From Dehalococcoides mccartyi (GTDB lineage Bacteria > Chloroflexota > Dehalococcoidia > Dehalococcoidales > Dehalococcoidaceae): a DNA stretch of 64,000 nucleotides. The position numbers and the translations under genes are program-made. The notes below the pieces were generated by a model, which saw only the letters and a program-made list of their open reading frames with translations, searched no databases and was not told where the DNA came from. The stretch spans positions 1 to 64,000 of the forward strand of contig NZ_CP013074.1 in the NCBI RefSeq assembly GCF_001889305.1, given 5' to 3'. This document shows positions 48,797 through 59,524 of the stretch, piece after piece. Numbering within the stretch: position 1 is the stretch's first letter; every line of letters begins with the position of its first letter.

Positions 48797-48985
48797 CTAA
48801 CCTGATAAATAACGAATAAAAGATTTTCGATTTAATACAAGATGGATAAGTATTGAGGCAATAAAAGCTATTGCCACAACCACATGGTGGCCGGAATTGC
48901 CGGGTTGGACATGGGCTTCCGCAATTCCGGTTATTATGGTAGCCAAGAATAATACAGCCATAGACAAACAAATAACTTTTCTCAT
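48797..48985 (-). CDS. Small DUF4405-like membrane protein
   Basis: 62 residues. Signal-like helix, then HVQPGNSGHHVVVAIAFIASILIHLVLNRK. Its His placement before and inside the second helix resembles the cytochrome b-like DUF4405 half-module. Overlaps the ferredoxin gene by four bases (ATGA). Heme binding is unproven; Dehalococcoides is generally described as lacking cytochromes, which makes the similarity notable. Confidence 0.6.
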   Translation of the reverse strand: MRKVICLSMAVLFLATIITGIAEAHVQPGNSGHHVVVAIAFIASILIHLVLNRKSFIRYLSG

Positions 48986-49239
48986 AGGGCTGCCCCTGAA
49001 CTAACTATAGAACGCACCGGTGTAATAGCCTGCTGAGGACAGACCTTAGCACATTTCAAACACCCTTTGCAGACATCTGGCCTGCGGATATGGGCATGAG
49101 TGTGGGAAAAAATGCTGATACTTTCTATAACACCATTAGGACAATTTTCAACACATTTCCAGCAAGCAAAGCATTTGGACGTATCAAGATAAATATGTTC
49201 GGTTGAGTTGTGTCTAGGTATAGGATTGTGTAGTTTCAC
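48982..49239 (-). CDS. Two-cluster (2[4Fe-4S]) ferredoxin-type protein
   Basis: 85 residues from GTG 49239, chosen for AAGGAG seven bases upstream; this also avoids overlap with the MerR gene. Two cluster motifs: CFACWKCVENCPNG and CKGCLKCAKVCPQQ, separated by a His-rich linker. Middle gene of a MerR-ferredoxin-DUF4405 set. Confidence 0.85.
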   Translation of the reverse strand: MKLHNPIPRHNSTEHIYLDTSKCFACWKCVENCPNGVIESISIFSHTHAHIRRPDVCKGCLKCAKVCPQQAITPVRSIVSSGAAL

Positions 49240-49256
49240 CAGTTTTCTCCTTGCGA

Positions 49257-49967
49257 TTAGCTGTGTTCCTGAAGGTGACGGGCTTCCTGCCGATAGATTT
49301 TGGTAGCCAAACACCCCTTGAAATCACTTGCCAGTTTAAACAATTCTTTAAGGGGGATTACTTCGTGGTTCGGCAAATGATGGATAATCTCATGCATAGT
49401 TTTGAATTCACTGCGGATTATTTCCATGTATTGCCTGTAAATCTCAAAATCAGCCGGTTTCAAGCCAAATGTAAACAGCCGTTTAGCTATTTGGGCGATA
49501 CGTATATCTATACCTTCAAACACCGGCCCTTTTTCAGTTTCGGATGCAAAAATAACTCCCTTGGCAACCAGTTCCTTTATATCTGTTTCGGTTAAACCGG
49601 AGACAGATATCAGTTCAGCCAGAGATATACTGCCGGATTTAGTTTCATCAAGCGTTGGCTGAAATATATCACCCAGTACAGATTCCATCTCGGCCACATG
49701 CTCAATATCCTGACCATCCCGCCTGGCCTGTAATATAATTTTTATTACAGATAAAGGGAGGAATTTATTTGATTGAAGCTCTTTGATCAGCAGGATATCC
49801 TTAACGCAATCAGGGCTATAGTAGGCCATATTGTGAGCCGTCTTGAGGGAGGGAAACAGCAGACCTTCACGGGTATAGTAGTGGATAGTCGGCAAAGAAA
49901 CCCCGGTTGCTTTTGCGACTTCACTTATACGCAGTAGTCCCTGTTTGTTTATATCTGATTTTCTCAT
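49257..49967 (-). CDS. MerR family transcriptional regulator
   Basis: 236 residues from ATG 49967. N-terminal MerR winged helix (LRISEVAKATGVSLPTIHYYTREGLLFP), helical dimer region, then a longer effector region without a clear metal-binding Cys cluster. The first ATG at 49988 lies in the -10 region, so the later start is preferred. An inverted repeat in the promoter suggests self-regulation of this three-gene unit. Confidence 0.88.
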   Translation of the reverse strand: MRKSDINKQGLLRISEVAKATGVSLPTIHYYTREGLLFPSLKTAHNMAYYSPDCVKDILLIKELQSNKFLPLSVIKIILQARRDGQDIEHVAEMESVLGDIFQPTLDETKSGSISLAELISVSGLTETDIKELVAKGVIFASETEKGPVFEGIDIRIAQIAKRLFTFGLKPADFEIYRQYMEIIRSEFKTMHEIIHHLPNHEVIPLKELFKLASDFKGCLATKIYRQEARHLQEHS

Positions 49968-50060: not shown

Positions 50061-51098
50061 TTACTCTGGAAAAGCCGCTTTCAAAACCCTGAGAGCCCGC
50101 AGGGTAATCCACTTGCTGGAATGTCTGTTTTTTTCTATGTCCATCCAAGTTTTGCCGGTAAAGCGGCATTCCATAGGCCAGCGTCCTTTGGGGTCTTGCT
50201 TGGAAAGCACCAAATCTATGGCTTCAGCCAAGCGGGGGTCACGGGCATAACCCAGAGCGGACAATACATCCAGCGTTTGCAGAATATCAGCTGCATAACC
50301 CAAGGGATAACCGAAACTAAACCAACTGGAACTTGGTTTGCTGCCGGTGCCAAAGGGGTAATCCGCCGCCACAGGGTTGTACCGGAACAGGAAATCCAAG
50401 CCTCGGTCCAGTGCCCGTATTACAGCCGGGGTACGTTTTGACGGAGGAATTCTGCTAAGGGCGTTGAGTGACTTTACAGCCCCCCAGCCGCAAGACAATC
50501 CTCCATTAGGACCGCAGTTGAACATTGGCCCGGGAGTATAAGCATAATAGCGGTCTGTTACACCCGCAGCCGCGGAATCTGCCATGCCATCCCCGGTAAT
50601 AAATCTGGCATGTTTTTCAATGGCAGTTTGCAGACGTTCATCTTCCAGCCACCCCAAATCTATCAGAGCCGCTTCAAGGTTGCCCGCCAGACAGTGAATA
50701 AAACCTGAAGGAGTGCCGTTATAAGAAAACCAGCCGGCCTTTGACTGGTTATATTCAAACAGGTAATTGCAACCTTTTTTTACCCTGCCATCAGATTTAT
50801 CTGCCCCCAGCTGGGCCAGAAAAACAATCTGCCAGACAGTACTCTGGTATTTGGGTGAATAACCCGCACCGGGGTGCAGCCAGTACCCTTCAGAGGACTG
50901 GGCAGCCAGTATAGAGGGAACAGGCCCGCTTAACATAATGGAGGCCTTAGCTTCTTTCAGCGCAGCGTCATTTTGCCCGCATCCGATAATATCCCTGAGG
51001 GTAAAGTAACGGACTGCCGGCTGGGATAAATCTGTTTCCAGTAACCAAGGAATAGGGTCTGCCCGCAATTTGTCTTTCCATGTTACTTTTTCAGACAT
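50061..51098 (-). CDS. Alpha/alpha-toroid (prenyltransferase/terpene-cyclase-like) protein
   Basis: 345 residues from ATG 51098, chosen for AGAGGA eight bases upstream. Repeated helix-turn units with QSSEGYWLHPGAGY, SKAGWFSYNGTPSGF, GLSCGWGAVKSLNAL and KQDPKGRWPMECRF recall the (alpha/alpha)6 barrel of squalene-cyclase and prenyltransferase proteins. The DXDD or DDXXE catalytic acids are not evident. Such genes are sometimes labelled nitrogen fixation protein in databases, which the sequence does not support. Function unknown. Confidence 0.7.
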   Translation of the reverse strand: MSEKVTWKDKLRADPIPWLLETDLSQPAVRYFTLRDIIGCGQNDAALKEAKASIMLSGPVPSILAAQSSEGYWLHPGAGYSPKYQSTVWQIVFLAQLGADKSDGRVKKGCNYLFEYNQSKAGWFSYNGTPSGFIHCLAGNLEAALIDLGWLEDERLQTAIEKHARFITGDGMADSAAAGVTDRYYAYTPGPMFNCGPNGGLSCGWGAVKSLNALSRIPPSKRTPAVIRALDRGLDFLFRYNPVAADYPFGTGSKPSSSWFSFGYPLGYAADILQTLDVLSALGYARDPRLAEAIDLVLSKQDPKGRWPMECRFTGKTWMDIEKNRHSSKWITLRALRVLKAAFPE

Positions 51099-51176
51099 CA
51101 GCATGTTCCTCTGTATAGTCTTTTAACTATTATATTGCCGGTCTTGGGGCAAAATCCAGATTGCTTCTTAATAATA

Positions 51177-51230: not shown

Positions 51231-51527
51231 CTATTTAGTTAAAGCTTTTTTAATAACTCCTTTGGGGTCACTGGCAAGCAGCACAATTTCCCATACCAGA
51301 AACCCGAAGATGATTACGCTTATTCCTAAGAAGGCTGCGTCCTGATTAATTTCCAGAAATTCACCTCCTTCCTGAAGATAGGCCATTACATGATCAACCA
51401 GCCACATTATGCTTGCACCCCAGAACATAAGACTGAGAAAGCCCAGTTTATACTTGTCATTCGGAGATTTTATATACCAGATAGCAGTGGTAATAATAGC
51501 GGCAGCCAAAGTCATTATCAGCCACAT
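51231..51527 (-). CDS. Small three-helix membrane protein
   Basis: 98 residues, three helices. Its start overlaps the stop of the preceding gene (TAATG), so the two are translationally coupled. Nothing recognized. Confidence 0.7.
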   Translation of the reverse strand: MWLIMTLAAAIITTAIWYIKSPNDKYKLGFLSLMFWGASIMWLVDHVMAYLQEGGEFLEINQDAAFLGISVIIFGFLVWEIVLLASDPKGVIKKALTK

Positions 51528-51919
51528 TATGCACCTGCACCAATGTTATTTGCCCTGGCAGATGCTTTAAACTTGGCATCTGCAACAAGTACCATGACTG
51601 CCCAGATGGCAGTGACTGTAAGCGCCATAGCGCCGCCTATTGTAGCCATTTCATGCAGCATGGGAGAGATATCAGCCGGATTCTCCATAGCCGTCAGGAA
51701 CGGCCACCACGGTACAACCTCGCCATGCCAGACATGCTCCAAAGCCAGCAGCACCGTGCCGCCCCAGAGCATTTTGTTGAGCCAGCCCAGTTTCCTGCCC
51801 CAGCTTATGCCCGATGTATTATCCGCTTTGATATCCTGCTGTTTTTCCTTTTTTTCTACTGTTTTCTGAACAACCGTGGTAATCACGGCCTCGCCTGCAA
51901 CCACCAAAAAACATGCCAT
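51527..51919 (-). CDS. Membrane protein, unknown
   Basis: 130 residues from ATG 51919, supported by AAGGAG ten bases upstream; the frame is open for 26 more codons. Helix at the start, charged KKEKQQD linker, then two helices separated by WHGEVVPWWPF. Paired with the next gene; both lie between the alpha/alpha-toroid gene and the hydrogenase-like operon. Confidence 0.65.
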   Translation of the reverse strand: MACFLVVAGEAVITTVVQKTVEKKEKQQDIKADNTSGISWGRKLGWLNKMLWGGTVLLALEHVWHGEVVPWWPFLTAMENPADISPMLHEMATIGGAMALTVTAIWAVMVLVADAKFKASARANNIGAGA

Positions 51920-52156
51920 ACCCTGCTGTCTCCTTTCATTTATGAGGTGTTGCCTGAATGCTATTTGCAACTGATTTATTATTGCATCTTGTTGCATTTA
52001 GTAATTGTTGCAATTATAAGGCGTACTGCTATGCGGCGTCAAGACCAAATAAACATAAGCTTTTCGGGGATTCAAAATGGCTGAGAGCCAAAGCAGATAC
52101 AGAAATAGCAGAATGTAAAAAAGGAGACTCTGGCCGCAGGGGGCAACAGGGAGGGG

Positions 52157-52672
52157 TTATTTCTTACCCAGAGACCGCATAAGCCCCAGCAGGGCAGTGA
52201 TTATCTGGATTGGCTCAGGCGGGTTGCCCGGTATCTTCAGGTCTACCGGCAATATTTTATCAACCCCGCCCAGTACCCCGTAACCGCCGCAGACAATGCC
52301 GTTGCCGCAGGCATCATCTCCCAAGGCTATTACCAGCTTGGGGGAGGGCATGGCATCAAAAGTTTTCCTGACGGCAACAGCCATATTCTGGCTGACCGCA
52401 CCGGTAACTATCAATATATCTGCGTGGCGGGGCGAAGCAACGAAGCTGATGCCGAAACGCTCAATGTCATAATAGGGGTTGGAAAGGTTATTCAGTTCTA
52501 TTTCGGCAGAGTTGTCACTGCCGCTGTCCAGCGCCCTGATAGCCAGACTCCGCCCGAAGATAGCATGTATCTCGGTTTTCAGGGCAATGCCCAGTTTATC
52601 AAAGTCCGAATCACCCTTTGGCATCTGCCGGCATACTTTGGGTTTAAAAATATTGTTTAAAACGTTTTTCAC
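52157..52672 (-). CDS. Hydrogenase-4-like small subunit (NuoB/HyfI homologue) lacking cluster cysteines
   Basis: 171 residues from GTG 52672, chosen for GAGG eight bases upstream; an ATG at 52702 overlaps the previous gene. Homologous to NuoB/HycG small subunits (SLAIRALDSGSDNSAEIEL, VTGAVSQNMAVAV, YGVLGGVDKILPVDLKIPGNPPEP). The four residues that normally bind the proximal 4Fe-4S cluster are Asp53, Ala56, Asp120 and Asn150 instead of Cys. The fold looks conserved, so this is specialization rather than decay. Last gene of the operon. Confidence 0.88.
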   Translation of the reverse strand: MKNVLNNIFKPKVCRQMPKGDSDFDKLGIALKTEIHAIFGRSLAIRALDSGSDNSAEIELNNLSNPYYDIERFGISFVASPRHADILIVTGAVSQNMAVAVRKTFDAMPSPKLVIALGDDACGNGIVCGGYGVLGGVDKILPVDLKIPGNPPEPIQIITALLGLMRSLGKK

Positions 52673-52682
52673 GGCAGATACC

Positions 52683-54263
52683 TCACAGGTCTGTCCCGGC
52701 ATAAGATAGGTTCAGGCTTTTATTTATCAGGGGAAAGTCCGGAATAATATCCCCCAGCACCGCATGCTCTATGGCCTGCCAGTTGCAGTAAGAGGCGGTA
52801 CGCACTTTATAACGTTCAATTTTCCCGTCCCTTAGCCACAGCCAGTGGAGGGACTGCCCGCGGGGAGACTCAACCAATACCAGGCTGTAACCGTTTTGCG
52901 GCTTAAGCTGGACTATATATTCACCGGCTGAAAGCCTGGAAGCGGTCTGGCGTATAAGCCCCAGCGAGGTCTGCACCTCGAAAACCCTTACCTTAAACCT
53001 TGCCATTACATCACCTTCGGGCAAAACAGGCGGCTCAAACGCAAGCTCAGAGTACAAGCCGTAAGGCTGGTTTAAACGGGTATCTATATCCGCCCCCGAA
53101 GCCCTGGCTGCCACCCCGGTAATATTAAGGGGTACAAGCAGGCGGTTATTTATAATGCCGGTAGTTTCAAAACGGTCAACCACCGAGGTCTTGGCCAGTG
53201 CCTTTTCAACCTGCTGGTTAAACCTGCCCTCAAAGACACGCAGGTAATCTGCCAGTTCATTTACAATCCCGGTAGGTATATCCCGAAGCAAGCCGCCGGG
53301 GGTAATTATGCCCTTTAAAAAGCGGGAACCGCTAAGGCGTTTGTTCCAGCGCATCAGTTCTTCACGCAGTGCCATAAGAGCAGCCGCCCCCACCGGATAA
53401 GCTACGTCTGTGAGCATACCGCTAAGGTCTGAAAGGTGAGAATAGAGCCTTTCCATTTCCAGCAATATTAACCTAAGCTGTTCAGCCCGCCTGGGCGGAC
53501 GGATAGAAGAGATGTGTTCAACCGCCGCAGAGTAGGCATAAGCATTGGCGGCGGATTCATCACCGCTTACAGATTCGGCTATTTTAAGCCCGAAATCTAT
53601 ATCCTTGCCCATGGCCAGTTTTTCAAGCCCGCGGTGAGTATAAAACAGCCTGACTTCCAGATTTAAAATGGGCTCACCTATGGCACTGAAACGGAAATGC
53701 CCCGGTTCAATAATACCGGCGTGCACCGGCCCTACTCCGACTTCATACACACCTTCGCCGCTTACTTTTTTAAACGGATACATGGCTTCATCCTCCACCC
53801 CGGCAGGCAGACAAAGCGGCTGATTTTTAAAACTTTTTACCAGCGGATGGAAATTGGCAGGGTAGGTTTCATGCAGCCAAAGCCGGCGGCGGTCAAAGGC
53901 ATTTTCAAATTCACAGCCGTAGCTATCCCGTATTTCCCTCTCAAAGTAGCAGGCGGAAGGGAAAATGGCGGCAACAGAGGCAACCGGACTGTCTGTACGG
54001 CGGATAATTACCAGCGTCCCGGAGTAATTCCTTTTTTCAAATACGTATAAAAGGCTGAGTCCTTCGTAACCTCTGAACCCCTCCAGGCCGAATAAGCCGA
54101 TAAGCCCGAAGCCGTCTTCGGCCAGCTTCGGATAGAGGGTAGCGGCTTCAGTCCAGTCAAGCCCCAAATAATAGTCTTTGTTTGCCCCTTTTTCCAGCTT
54201 GAGAGGATTGATAGCAGGGCTTAGAAATTCGGACAGATAAGTATATAAATCAGGTATTTTCAT
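52683..54263 (-). CDS. Hydrogenase-4-like large subunit (NuoCD/HyfG homologue) lacking Ni ligands
   Basis: 526 residues: NuoC-like part (about 1-165, with CYFEREIRDSYGCEF) fused to a NuoD/HycE-like part (GPVHAGIIEPGHFRF, LEVRLFYTHRGLEK). The N-terminal CXXC that binds Ni-Fe in hydrogenases is replaced by Ser233/Glu236 (ESVSGDESA), and the C-terminal CXXC by Ser520/Gly523 (LSYAGTDL). The protein ends there without the usual processed tail. It cannot carry a normal NiFe centre. Similar losses define the energy-converting hydrogenase-related (Ehr) complexes. Confidence 0.9.
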   Translation of the reverse strand: MKIPDLYTYLSEFLSPAINPLKLEKGANKDYYLGLDWTEAATLYPKLAEDGFGLIGLFGLEGFRGYEGLSLLYVFEKRNYSGTLVIIRRTDSPVASVAAIFPSACYFEREIRDSYGCEFENAFDRRRLWLHETYPANFHPLVKSFKNQPLCLPAGVEDEAMYPFKKVSGEGVYEVGVGPVHAGIIEPGHFRFSAIGEPILNLEVRLFYTHRGLEKLAMGKDIDFGLKIAESVSGDESAANAYAYSAAVEHISSIRPPRRAEQLRLILLEMERLYSHLSDLSGMLTDVAYPVGAAALMALREELMRWNKRLSGSRFLKGIITPGGLLRDIPTGIVNELADYLRVFEGRFNQQVEKALAKTSVVDRFETTGIINNRLLVPLNITGVAARASGADIDTRLNQPYGLYSELAFEPPVLPEGDVMARFKVRVFEVQTSLGLIRQTASRLSAGEYIVQLKPQNGYSLVLVESPRGQSLHWLWLRDGKIERYKVRTASYCNWQAIEHAVLGDIIPDFPLINKSLNLSYAGTDL

Positions 54264-54266
54264 AGC

Positions 54267-55748
54267 TTAAAAACCTAAACCTTTGACTATCTGGCTTAGA
54301 AAATCAGCCAGTACGGGAGGCTGGAAAACACCTAAAAACACTACTCCGGCCATAATAACATAAACCGGCAGTTTCATAGTCAGGGGAGTTCGGAAAACAG
54401 GGCGGTCGGCAGTTTGTTCACTGCGGGTAAAGGCTTTAAGCAAAAAGATGGCAAATGAGGAAGCCACCAGCAACAGGAAAAAGAGTACCACGAGCACCAG
54501 CCAGACCGAAATACCGCTTAGCTGGATAAGGACATTCAGTTCAGACAAAAAGACCGGGAACATAGGCAAGCCGGTGATAGCGGCACTGCCCATAATAACA
54601 CCCCAGGCAGCCACCGGCTGGAGGCGGAATATATCAAATATACGGTCAAAACGGTCACTGCCGTATTGGCGGCGGATAATCCCGGCCGAAAAAAACAGCC
54701 CGCTCTTGACCAGCGAATGTGCCAAAGTATGAAAAAGCATCCAAAATACTGCCAGAGGTGTACCTATGCCTATAGCCAGCAGCATGATACCCATATGCTC
54801 TATGCTGGAAAAACCAATTAGTTTCTTCAAGTTGCGGCGGGAAAGCATACTAAAGGCAGCTACCCCTATGCTGAGTATACCTAAACCTATCAGCACATTT
54901 GAAAAAGTTTCGCCTATCTGGCTCTGGCAAAGGAGGGCACTCAGGCGGAGAATACCCACTATGCCTATATTCAGCACGGTAGCAGACATCAAGGCGGTAA
55001 CCACTGATGGGGCTTTGGCATAAGCCGCCGGCAGCCAGTTATGCAAAGGGACTAACCCGCTCTTAGCCAACAACCCGGTCAGTATCAGCAAAGCACTTAA
55101 ACCCAGCACCGATGGTGAAAGCAGGGGAGCTAAGCCAGCAAGTTCGTCCCAGTTCAAAGTGCCTGTACCGCTCACCTGACGGGTAAGGGAGAAAAGAATA
55201 ATAAGCCCGATGAAGGCAAATATCATGGCGGTAGAGGCAATAAATATATACTTCAAAGCGGCCACCAGGTTGTCACGAGCATTTAAGGTGGCAATGAGCA
55301 GGGCGGAAAGAAGCGTGCTCAGCTCTAAAAACAGCCAGCATAAGGCCAGATTATTGGCAAAAAAGGCAAAGGTAATTACGGCAAGAATCAGGTTAAAACC
55401 CAGATAGAAAACGGGCAGGTTTTCCGTATCCAGCTCTTTATTTGAAATAAGATGGCTGACATAACCGCGGGAATAAAGTGCCGCCAGTATAAACACCACT
55501 GAAGCAATCAATATCTGAAATATACCCAACCGGTCAATGAATAAGTAACGGCTTTCCATGAAATAATGGGGCAGGGGTAAAGCTAAAAGTACCCAGAGGC
55601 TCAGCCCCAGATGCCACAAGCCATGCCCCAAACTGAATCCTGCCAGCATTTTCGGGGACAAACCGCTCCTGCGTAAACGCAAGCCCAACAGAATTCCGCC
55701 CAGAAGTACCGAGGGTAAAATATAAGCCAGCAGTATCAGATTTTCCAT
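54267..55748 (-). CDS. Hydrogenase-4-like membrane subunit HyfF (NuoL/M/N antiporter-type)
   Basis: 493 residues from ATG 55748, which overlaps the previous stop (TAATG); an ATG six codons upstream is possible. About 14 helices. Antiporter-type segments with LAKSGLVPLHNWLPAAYAKAPSVVTALM and SSIEHMGIMLLAIG, including the conserved Lys and His used in proton transfer. One of two such subunits in the complex. Confidence 0.9.
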   Translation of the reverse strand: MENLILLAYILPSVLLGGILLGLRLRRSGLSPKMLAGFSLGHGLWHLGLSLWVLLALPLPHYFMESRYLFIDRLGIFQILIASVVFILAALYSRGYVSHLISNKELDTENLPVFYLGFNLILAVITFAFFANNLALCWLFLELSTLLSALLIATLNARDNLVAALKYIFIASTAMIFAFIGLIILFSLTRQVSGTGTLNWDELAGLAPLLSPSVLGLSALLILTGLLAKSGLVPLHNWLPAAYAKAPSVVTALMSATVLNIGIVGILRLSALLCQSQIGETFSNVLIGLGILSIGVAAFSMLSRRNLKKLIGFSSIEHMGIMLLAIGIGTPLAVFWMLFHTLAHSLVKSGLFFSAGIIRRQYGSDRFDRIFDIFRLQPVAAWGVIMGSAAITGLPMFPVFLSELNVLIQLSGISVWLVLVVLFFLLLVASSFAIFLLKAFTRSEQTADRPVFRTPLTMKLPVYVIMAGVVFLGVFQPPVLADFLSQIVKGLGF

Positions 55749-56428
55749 TACTTTTTCTTGAACCATTCACCCAGCGGCGTAAAGCGGGGGTGAAAATCCT
55801 CTATAGTTGAATCTATGCCGAAAGCCAGCACCGTAAGAAGCAGTACCAGTATCACCAAATCTATCAGGACCAGTATTTCCAGTATAAAGGGGAGTTCCGC
55901 TACGAATAAACCAAACAGTATTGCCCCGTTTTCCATACTCAGATAGCCCACTATCTTGGTCAGCATTTTCTTGCGGCTGAAGATGACCATCATGCCCATT
56001 AGTGCCATGGACACCCCTATAACCGCCCCCAGAGTAAACAGCCGCTCAGGCATTACTTCGCCCAGAAGATTTGAAAACACCTGATAGACGCCGAAGATAA
56101 GCAGAATGCTAACTATCAGCGAACTGACAGGGTAAAGGAAGCGGAACTCCAGATCACGCCTGATATTCATCTGGTAAAGTATCCGGTTTAATATGCGGGG
56201 TATCAGAAAGACCTTGCCGAATAGAGTGAGCAGGACAATAAAAAGCAGGGTCAGGTGGCCGTCATGTATAAAAAATGCCAGAGCTACCAATGCCACCAGC
56301 AGTGACTGCAAGGCATAGGTTTTGAACAAGCTAACAAGACTGCGCTGCCATAAAACCAGTGAGGACGTAACCAGCACCAGCACCAGCAGTATTTTCAGTA
56401 TGTCGTTTAAAGGTATATTTTCTAACAT
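55748..56428 (-). CDS. Hydrogenase-4-like membrane subunit HyfE
   Basis: 226 residues, six helices; NuoK-like part plus extra helices as in HyfE (SMENGAILFGLFVAELPFILEILVLIDLVI). Located between the HyfC- and HyfF-like genes, three bases after the former, one-base overlap with the latter. Confidence 0.85.
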   Translation of the reverse strand: MLENIPLNDILKILLVLVLVTSSLVLWQRSLVSLFKTYALQSLLVALVALAFFIHDGHLTLLFIVLLTLFGKVFLIPRILNRILYQMNIRRDLEFRFLYPVSSLIVSILLIFGVYQVFSNLLGEVMPERLFTLGAVIGVSMALMGMMVIFSRKKMLTKIVGYLSMENGAILFGLFVAELPFILEILVLIDLVILVLLLTVLAFGIDSTIEDFHPRFTPLGEWFKKK

Positions 56429-56431
56429 CTT

Positions 56432-57382
56432 CTACGCCAAAAACTTGAATAGTACGGTGATAAAGGAAAAGAAAAAGGCCAGCATAAAAAGCCCCGGCAC
56501 CCTGAAAAGGCGGAATTTTGCCATAAGGGATTCAAATATACCCACTCCCACCGCAAGCAGACTGCCCTTTATCACAAAAGCCAGAAATGCTACTGCTATC
56601 CCGCCTGCCGCAGGTGCTGATGCCAGCCCCCAGGGAGCTATAATATTTAAAAGCACCCCCATCAGCAGGGTTTGCTTAAGGGCATGTGAAAGCTCTATCA
56701 GTGCCAAATCCGGCCCGGAGTATTCCAACGTCATGGCTTCATGTATCATAGTCAGTTCCAGATGGGTTTCAGGGTTGTCTACCGGTATACGGGAGGTTTC
56801 TACAATAAGGATTATAAATAGAGAAATACCGGTAAGTATCAGGCTGGGATTGGACAGGAAACTGCTTTCCCGCACCTGAGCGAACATATCAAACAGGCTG
56901 GTTGTCTGAAGCACATATGCCAGCGCCCCGAATACGATAATAATCACCGGCTCTATAATGGCGGCAAGAGTCATCTCCCGTGAACTGCCCATACCGCCGA
57001 AACTGCTGCCGGCATCCAGCCCCGAAAGCGCCATGAAAAAGCGGGACATAACCATGAGGTATAAAAACAAGATGATATTGCCCAGACCGGGGTCTGCCGC
57101 AGGTATAAAGACCAGAGGCACAGACAGAGACGCCACCATCATAAATGCCAGACTCAGGTATGGGGTAAGGCGGATTATGAATGAGGTCTGATAGGAATAA
57201 ACCCTTTCCTTCTTGAAAAGCTTGTACAACTGGTAATAGGTCTGTAAAAGGGGCGGCCCCACCCGTCCCTGGGCATAAGCCTTGACCTTTTTAATAAGGC
57301 TGATAAAGAGGGGAGATACCAGCAGGGCCAGAGCGGTATTTATAAAACCGTATAACACCAGATTTAAGCTCACCACAGCCAC
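56432..57382 (-). CDS. Hydrogenase-4-like membrane subunit HyfC (NuoH homologue)
   Basis: 316 residues, eight helices. Diagnostic KAYAQGRVGPPLLQTYYQL near residue 35 and VDNPETHLELTMIHEAM, the NuoH-type loop that meets the peripheral arm. These acidic loops are intact, so coupling between arm and membrane part may remain. Overlaps the HyfB-like gene by 13 bases. Confidence 0.9.
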   Translation of the reverse strand: MAVVSLNLVLYGFINTALALLVSPLFISLIKKVKAYAQGRVGPPLLQTYYQLYKLFKKERVYSYQTSFIIRLTPYLSLAFMMVASLSVPLVFIPAADPGLGNIILFLYLMVMSRFFMALSGLDAGSSFGGMGSSREMTLAAIIEPVIIIVFGALAYVLQTTSLFDMFAQVRESSFLSNPSLILTGISLFIILIVETSRIPVDNPETHLELTMIHEAMTLEYSGPDLALIELSHALKQTLLMGVLLNIIAPWGLASAPAAGGIAVAFLAFVIKGSLLAVGVGIFESLMAKFRLFRVPGLFMLAFFFSFITVLFKFLA

Positions 57383-59304
57383 CTTGCCGCCAGTATAACC
57401 AGCAGAACGGTTATAAAGCTGTACAGGATATGGCTGCCCAAATCAACGTCCTGCAGGCGGGATACGTAACGGGAAATACGCCCGAACAAACCGGCAATTG
57501 GCAGGTAAATATACTCATCAAAAAACTTTAATGTGTGAATGGCGGACTTGCCCTGCTTGAAAATAGCCTGCTGGTTATCTTCGTAACTGCGTTCATTGTA
57601 GTGGCGGGTGCGGTATATCAGCCGGAATATCTGGAAAAGAGGTTCGGCAAAACCGGCGGCGGTATACTCAAAGCGGGGGGTGGGGCGGATATATCCGCAA
57701 GCCCAGGTCTCACTCCGGCGGCTTTCCCGGGGGGAAAACAGCCTGACCATACCGAAGACCAAAACCCCGAATATAACCAGCACCAGGCCAACCAGTGACA
57801 TATCCGGTAAGTCAAAACTGTAACCTGCCATTTCGAATATAGGAACAGTAAAAAGACCCAGCACCAGACAGGCAACTGCCAGTATAGCCGGCCCTATAAT
57901 CATACTTTTTGAAACTTCCTTGGCAGAAGCCGCTTCCTGACTGCGGGGCATAGCCAGAAAGACCTCCCCAAAAGCCTTTACAAAACAGGCTGCCGCCAAA
58001 GCCGAAGTAAGTGCCAGTATGGCCAGCACACTGAAAAGAAGTATCTTTATACTGCTTTCGGCCAGAGAGAAGGACTGGAAAAAAGACTCAAAGAGCATCA
58101 GCTCACTCATAAAACCATTGAAGGGAGGCAGAGCGGATATGGAAACCGCCCCAACCAGAAAGATAACCGTGGTATAGGGCATAAGTTTCACCAGCCCGCC
58201 CATTTTTTCAATATTGCGGTCACCTACCGCAATCACCACCGACCCGGCAGTCATAAACAGCAGACTTTTAAAAATGGCATGGTTCAGGCTGTGAAATAAG
58301 GCCGCACCGAGTGCCAGCATAGCCATAGTATCCAGCCCGTAGCAACCAAAAATAACATACAGGCCAATACCCATCATAATAATGCCGATATTTTCTATAC
58401 TGCAAAAAGCCAGCAGCATTTTAAGGTCATGTTCTTTAAATGCATAGATAATGCCGAGCAAGGCACTTATCATCCCCAGCAGAAGTATTGATACCCCCCA
58501 CCATATTTCCGGGCTGAGAATATCCGTAAGGAAACGTACCAGACCATAAACAGCCACTTTGAGCATTACTCCGGACATAAGGGCGGAGACGTTGGAAGGA
58601 CTGGCAGAATGGGCATACGGCAACCACTTGTGAAGGGGTATGATACCGGCCTTTATCCCAAAGGCCAGAAATGCCAGTATAAAAACAAAGCTCTGAATAC
58701 CGGACGGCGCACCGTCAAGGCTAAGTTCAAAACTGCCGTTTTGGATATACATAACCACAGCCATCATCATCAGGAAAACAGTGCTTAGCTGGGTAAGCAC
58801 AAAATAATAGACGCCGGCCCGCTGGGTAAATACCCCCTGATAATCATTCATCATCAGGAAAAAGGAGCTAAGCGCCATTATCTCCCAGAAGAATAACAGA
58901 CTAAAGGTATTGGCTGAGGCCACCACCCCAACCATGGAAAGTATGAAAACACTCATAACAGCTGAAAGCAGGTTGGCACGTTCGTTGGAAGACAGGTGAT
59001 GGTTGTATCCCAGAGAGTATATTGCTACACAAAGCGAAATAAGGCTGATTATTATGACAAAAAACGATGCCAGATGGTCAAAATGAAAGGCTATGTCCAG
59101 CCCGGGTGCGATACTCCAGAGGAGAATATCAAGCGGACTGCCGAAAAATACCGGTAAAGACCCGCAAATCAGGCATACCGCAGCCGTTATAATCAGCCAC
59201 AGCACCGCCTGCCAAACCTTTTTCCTGCCGTGATTTAACACTATGCCCGTCAGGGCAGCAGCAAGAAGTAACCCCCCGCCGCCAAGCAATAAACCCGCTG
59301 TCAT
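57370..59304 (-). CDS. Hydrogenase-4-like membrane subunit HyfB (NuoL-type antiporter)
   Basis: 644 residues from ATG 59304; a TTG at 59316 is an alternative closer to GAGG. About 16 helices; FGIKAGIIPLHKWLPYAHSASPSNVSALM and FCSIENIGIIMMGIG are the conserved antiporter motifs with Lys, His and Glu. First gene of a six-gene operon (B, C, E, F, G, I in Hyf terms). No HyfA/HyfH-type ferredoxin subunit and no maturation gene is present. Confidence 0.9.
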   Translation of the reverse strand: MTAGLLLGGGGLLLAAALTGIVLNHGRKKVWQAVLWLIITAAVCLICGSLPVFFGSPLDILLWSIAPGLDIAFHFDHLASFFVIIISLISLCVAIYSLGYNHHLSSNERANLLSAVMSVFILSMVGVVASANTFSLLFFWEIMALSSFFLMMNDYQGVFTQRAGVYYFVLTQLSTVFLMMMAVVMYIQNGSFELSLDGAPSGIQSFVFILAFLAFGIKAGIIPLHKWLPYAHSASPSNVSALMSGVMLKVAVYGLVRFLTDILSPEIWWGVSILLLGMISALLGIIYAFKEHDLKMLLAFCSIENIGIIMMGIGLYVIFGCYGLDTMAMLALGAALFHSLNHAIFKSLLFMTAGSVVIAVGDRNIEKMGGLVKLMPYTTVIFLVGAVSISALPPFNGFMSELMLFESFFQSFSLAESSIKILLFSVLAILALTSALAAACFVKAFGEVFLAMPRSQEAASAKEVSKSMIIGPAILAVACLVLGLFTVPIFEMAGYSFDLPDMSLVGLVLVIFGVLVFGMVRLFSPRESRRSETWACGYIRPTPRFEYTAAGFAEPLFQIFRLIYRTRHYNERSYEDNQQAIFKQGKSAIHTLKFFDEYIYLPIAGLFGRISRYVSRLQDVDLGSHILYSFITVLLVILAARWLW

Positions 59305-59524
59305 TTTAAAATACAAATCCTCGTAAAAAGATAAAGAGCCCCTGTAGGCTCCTCTATTCTATCTCTATGTAAATAGTAGATTTATATTCTAGATATTGCC
59401 CTGTCCAAAGTCAAAACACTCCCAAAGCTGGGCTGCCTTAAACTATTTTACATAACGGAATATACCTTAAACAGCCCCTCAAATTTAACACAATCTTAAT
59501 ATCCGCTTAGCAGTGGCTTAATAA

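Follow-up and report, generated by a model that had tools for sequence, protein, structure and literature searches.

Six genes on the minus strand of the Dehalococcoides mccartyi chromosome, located in the window analyzed here (the whole stretch of 64,000 nucleotides at the start of the single 1.52 Mb contig of this genome), appear to encode a membrane-bound member of the hydrogenase-4/complex I family, which would be derived from hydrogenase-4 and would have given up its redox chemistry. The NiFe ligands of the large subunit and the N2 ligands of the small subunit are gone and a ferredoxin subunit is not encoded in the operon, leaving the complex without any recognizable redox-cofactor site. 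This Dehalococcoides Hyc complex probably moves ions without redox chemistry. The genes are arranged in the order HyfB-like, HyfC/NuoH-like, HyfE-like, HyfF-like, large and small subunit (Table 1).

Table 1. Genes of the hydrogenase-4-derived operon and their positions in the window.
Feature	Position	Strand	Basis or remark
HyfB-like antiporter-type membrane subunit	57370..59316	(-)	NF006418, 1153 bits vs cut-off 794
HyfC/NuoH-like membrane subunit	56432..57382	(-)	Pfam and conserved E-channel acids
HyfE-like membrane subunit	55748..56428	(-)	NCBIfam; K72, E166, E184 conserved
HyfF-like antiporter-type membrane subunit	54267..55766	(-)	NF006427, 826 bits vs cut-off 511
Large subunit, HycE/HyfG-like NuoC+NuoD fusion	52683..54263	(-)	526 aa, Ni ligands replaced
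Small subunit, HycG/HyfI/NuoB-like	52157..52702	(-)	up to 181 aa, four N2 cysteines replaced

The large subunit matches the Pfam families Complex1_49kDa (E 1.2e-41) and Complex1_30kDa (E 1.2e-11), with E. coli HycE as its best solved relative (E 2.2e-57). Alignment with HycE and HyfG of E. coli places S233-G-D-E236 at the position of CGIC and S520-Y-A-G523 at that of the C-terminal CYSC, as an earlier reading of the sequence alone had claimed for Ser233/Glu236 and Ser520/Gly523. Ser, Glu, Ser and Gly were found at the four former ligand sites in 22 of 22 distinct clade members (the window's protein counted), which reach down to about 50% overall identity. Neither outcome that would have refuted the sequence-only reading was observed: intact cysteines were found in no independently sequenced copy and the sites proved invariant among strains; chance or a sequencing error was rejected as the source of the replacements, which are fixed in all clade relatives. 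Moreover, the positions of the complex I quinone residues His38 and Tyr87 are taken by I185 and G234, and not a single cysteine is invariant in the large subunit across the clade alignment. The C-terminal maturation extension is absent too, a feature we rejected as diagnostic, since Chloroflexi homologs with intact Ni cysteines and the Ech-like subunit of the same genome also come without it. The fold is nevertheless predicted to be that of HycE, the AlphaFold model (pLDDT 90) superimposing on HycE 7z0s_E with a TM score of 0.90. Two further genomes of the genus have the gene, at 96% and 88% identity, and within a second genus of the family it occurs in seven of eight genomes. A search for viral copies returned none.

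The more unusual part, which the sequence-only reading missed and by which it understated the case, is the loss of N2 in the small subunit. Here, GSCNGC is changed to GSDNSA, GDC to GDD and PGCPP to PGNPP, so that all proximal/N2 [4Fe-4S] cysteines are replaced (D63, A66, D130, N160); an alternative start of the protein is the GTG at 52672. None of the four ligand sites holds a Cys in any of the 23 clade members, in which the residues are Asp, Ala/Thr/Val, Asp and Asn/Asp, with Asp at sites 1 and 3 in all 23 and Asn at site 4 in 22. The sole invariant Cys of this subunit is C132 (18 of 18 aligned members), and hidden cluster ligands were rejected on the count of invariant cysteines, i.e., none in the large and one in the small subunit. 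With the small-subunit model (pLDDT 86) lying within 1.9 Å of MbhJ 6cfw_J over 136 columns, the fold of the arm is predicted to be retained in both peripheral subunits.

The membrane part carries the charges of an ion path. Conserved are E145, K222, K253, K350 and E405 in HyfB and the E-channel acids E144, E195, D202, E209 and E215 in HyfC, and HyfF has E148, K235, K354 and E409. In a comparison of these three subunits that took in N2-less, N2-bearing and E. coli members, the Lys, Glu and Asp residues of the ion paths were kept in the N2-less, the N2-bearing and most of the E. coli members. HyfF E409 varies, about half of the N2-less relatives having Lys instead of Glu there, which we count against a transporter function. 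Just past the operon, at 51231-51997 (minus strand), lie genes for two small apparent membrane proteins, which are kept in both sister genomes and have no Pfam or NCBIfam match, followed at 50061-51104 (minus strand) by a gene for a protein of 347 aa weakly resembling squalene-hopene cyclase (E 0.0004, well short of the model cut-off).

Scanned with the small-subunit alignment, named genomes yielded 80 loci, the counts of which are not prevalences, as one of the two scan patterns favors N2-less proteins. Residue typing at the Ni and N2 sites sorted these loci into four kinds, in all of which the six-gene content is almost constant. Both sites are kept (Ni+ N2+) in E. coli Hyc and Hyf and in some Chloroflexi; the familiar Ehr of rhizobia, Nitrospira, Verrucomicrobia and Nitrososphaerota are Ni- N2+; one Chloroflexi group is Ni+ N2-; and the Ni- N2- type comprises the window's clade (Dehalococcoidia together with Methanosarcina, Methanoregula and Altiarchaeales MAGs) as well as a second group of CPR bacteria, a Syntrophus MAG and Actinomycetota MAGs. 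In the CPR-type group the small-subunit gene comes first in order. The Ni+ N2- Chloroflexi loci (L019, L020, L056, L057, L121-L126) keep all four Ni cysteines in the large subunit and have Asp/Glu, Cys/Thr/Ala, Glu/Asp and Asp/Ser at the N2 sites of a small subunit that is fused to or overlaps a ferredoxin-type domain.

On the archaeal side of the window's clade, the N2-less operon was found in Methanosarcina, Methanoregula, Altiarchaeales and other euryarchaeal MAGs (L028-L030, L032, L034, L035), with small subunits of 61-66% identity to that of the window. The sequences suggest gene transfer between Dehalococcoidia and archaea, the latter being known from MAG assignments. Several loci show peculiarities of their own: an Altiarchaeales MAG (L028, 3347-19313) has the four membrane subunits HyfB-C-E-F a second time, roughly 4 kb after its complete operon, an extra HyfF-like gene directly follows the large subunit in a Kaiserbacteria MAG (L047, 17130-18605), and two Ehr operons sit on a Variovorax plasmid (L026, 2-1212), in the second of which the small subunit overlaps, or is fused to, a 4Fe-4S protein. 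At a further locus (L018, G263:C3, 1378-2951), the large subunit is interrupted by a TGA stop and a frame change, either real or an assembly error.

In a large-subunit tree built without the Ni-motif columns, the window's clade joins the N2-bearing Nitrososphaerota-type Ehr with support of 97/95, apart from the CPR-type group; a single origin of N2 loss in Ni- complexes was rejected on this tree (p-AU 0.0098 for a forced Ni- N2- clade). The small-subunit tree, which is shorter and was used for the question of origin in the version without ligand columns, also separates both Ni- N2- groups, though one clade is not rejected there (p-AU 0.32). The Ni+ N2- Chloroflexi stand apart in both trees, the groups having been named after inspection of the residues. 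Judging from these separate positions, N2 was lost on no fewer than two occasions, and probably on three. Among 192 former N2-ligand positions of N2-less proteins, a descriptive count over related sequences, an acidic residue (Asp or Glu) occupies 106, Cys persists at 13 and just 9 hold a residue one base change from Cys. Asp is two base changes away from Cys, and drift would be expected to produce the opposite of this acid-rich pattern. A cluster with four thiolates has a net charge of -2 or -3, and two or three carboxylates at the N2 site would preserve a similar charge.

In complex I, electrons reach quinone via N2, and in group 4 hydrogenases they pass from ferredoxin to NiFe. Neither electron end is left in the window complex, the former NiFe pocket being devoid of its ligand set and the quinone residues being replaced, and what remains is a membrane module for ion translocation, capped by protein. 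The missing ligands are directly observed; the transport mechanism that we infer is one in which the complex acts as H+- or cation-translocating device, most likely an antiporter or gradient-driven exchanger, and the dead hydrogenase arm could serve as cap and gate above the E-channel of the HyfC subunit. Asp63 and Asp130, with Asn/Asp160, might imitate the negative charge of the N2 cluster or serve as protonatable switch. We would give an even chance to the complex being such a non-redox transporter of protons or cations with the acidic site in one of these two roles. Quinones are absent from Dehalococcoides (PMC10772276), a point in favor of this reading; counted against it is that an ion-transport measurement on complexes of this sort was not found in the accessible literature. 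The respiration complex and the ATPase are the only abundant membrane complexes reported in the CBDB1 complexome; since no further one is listed, which also counts against the transporter reading, the complex may be scarce in cells and its expression is probably low. A wider proposal, which we advance tentatively, is that several lineages independently made a hydrogenase-4/complex I machine into a redox-free ion transporter, in which a small acidic site takes over the electrostatic or protonation role of reduced N2. If true, the repeated exchange of N2 for an acidic site is a natural test of the coupling between arm and pump in complex I.

The sequence-only reading had left it open whether another redox partner or a conformational change is coupled to ion movement. 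The latter half is favored by our data, whereas the former is hard to sustain because the N2 ligands are lost and the operon lacks a ferredoxin-type subunit; no counterpart of HyfA or HyfH, the ferredoxin subunits of E. coli hydrogenase-4, was found in it, and a ferredoxin-motif scan of the operon detected no such protein. A redox-coupled Ehr with an unrecognized partner, in which electrons delivered to a non-canonical site still drive ion pumping, nevertheless deserves attention, although we regard it as rather unlikely. Conceivable candidates for this site are a flavin, a metal newly bound at Asp63/Asp130/Cys132/Asn160, or a ferredoxin or dehydrogenase that has its gene elsewhere and docks to the complex. 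Cys132 is invariant in the window's clade, formate dehydrogenase partners are proposed in published Ehr hypotheses (PMC6349859, PMC7894505), and a 2[4Fe-4S] ferredoxin-like gene at 48982-49314 (minus strand), 3 kb beyond the operon, is a possible candidate partner. This gene, as well as the possibility of a partner gene elsewhere, was counted against the transporter reading. However, the N2 and NiFe ligands and the complex I quinone residues are all absent, Cys132 is missing from the other N2-less group and nearly all N2-less loci come without a linked redox gene. A redox partner beside the operon was rejected, as the motif scan yielded this one ferredoxin-like gene at 3 kb, which is close to the operon in one sister genome and linked in no other.

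An alternative option, which we consider unlikely, could be that the arm has a site for some non-redox substrate or partner, with ion movement coupled to the chemistry there, comparable to the DAB complexes and CO2 hydration. NuoL-type subunits driving non-redox reactions are a precedent (PMC13144422), and the invariant S233, D235, E236 and N240 in the former Ni pocket exceed the needs of a mere spacer. Against this, the neighboring genes give no hint of a substrate, and conserved neighbors pointing to one were not seen at any of the compared loci.

Hyc is listed among the [NiFe]-hydrogenases of Dehalococcoides (PMC8516407, PMC6383490), in line with the current annotation, which implies a working hydrogenase-4, in this case one with unusual ligands. 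With none of four Ni and none of four N2 ligands left this is very improbable, and the genome has other hydrogenase large-subunit genes (202629-204050, 605286-606533 and 845750-846784), the last of which keeps an intact CGIC...CISC. DET1570 is named HycG in the Dehalococcoides literature and, going by this name, would be orthologous to the small subunit encoded in the window; Hyc was also reported in the CBDB1 proteome. Contrary to the hydrogenase listing, the ligand sites indicate that Dehalococcoides Hyc should not handle H2, which is relevant as these H2-living bacteria are used against chlorinated solvents and one of their counted hydrogenases would drop out. Hardly credible, finally, is a functionless, decaying remnant, which two lost cofactor sites and the missing gene in one genome of the second genus (G007) would fit, but all six genes are under purifying selection (dN/dS vs. 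two sister genomes of 0.10-0.11 for the arm and 0.03-0.14 for the membrane subunits, by which a pseudogene was rejected), the replacements are fixed within the clade and the six-gene order is intact even across distant phyla.

Among known systems, the Ehr of Geobacter, comammox Nitrospira, ammonia-oxidizing archaea and CPR bacteria are described with a hydrogenase-4/Ech-like gene set and missing NiFe cysteines (PMC7894505, PMC10284858, PMC10432482, PMC7304191). The window complex likewise has a group 4-related gene set with Mrp-type membrane subunits, no NiFe CxxC and the SGD...SY(A/S)G motifs in its large subunit; the absent Ni ligands thereby support the earlier view of an Ehr-type complex that does not use H2. 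Unlike the window's clade, which has none, most fetched Ehr, e.g., those of rhizobia, Nitrospira and Verrucomicrobia, retain the four N2 [4Fe-4S] cysteines, a trait that stands outside the published Ehr definition. Loss of the Ni ligands alone is a published property of Ehr (PMC6349859, PMC7304191, PMC10284858) and by itself not new; joined with the loss of N2, it makes the complex different from known Ehr. No mention of small-subunit cluster loss in Ehr was found in the openly readable literature, also by targeted searches, the papers at hand reporting the loss in the large subunit only.

With E. coli Hyf and Hyc (formate hydrogenlyase), the window complex shares counterparts of HyfB, C, E, F, G and I and, as modeled, the HycE fold. 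In contrast to these, it has neither the four NiFe cysteines nor the proximal [4Fe-4S] ligands of the small subunit that characterize group 4 [NiFe]-hydrogenases, and it lacks the HyfA/HyfH ferredoxins, HyfD and the C-terminal maturation extension. The antiporter-type and NuoH-type subunits retain the Lys/Glu ion path expected of H+/cation transporters of the NuoL/Mrp type. In Mrp antiporters, NuoL-type ion subunits perform non-redox work; to our knowledge, neither these nor the DAB complexes have a hydrogenase-like arm or a NuoH-type subunit. DAB (DabA/DabB) resembles the window complex in its way of working only, i.e., in the use of NuoL-type ion subunits for non-redox work (PMC13144422). 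Complex I (Nuo) offers a similar NuoB/NuoCD-like arm and membrane subunits of the NuoH and NuoL/M/N types, whose channel charges are conserved, but differs in its NADH module, its N2 ligands and the quinone-site His/Tyr pair in NuoB/NuoD, all of which the window complex lacks. How the arrival of electrons at N2 leads to distant ion movement in the membrane is a long-standing question for complex I, and a relative that has the coupling machinery, but neither N2 nor a redox substrate site, lets the transport step be studied separately.
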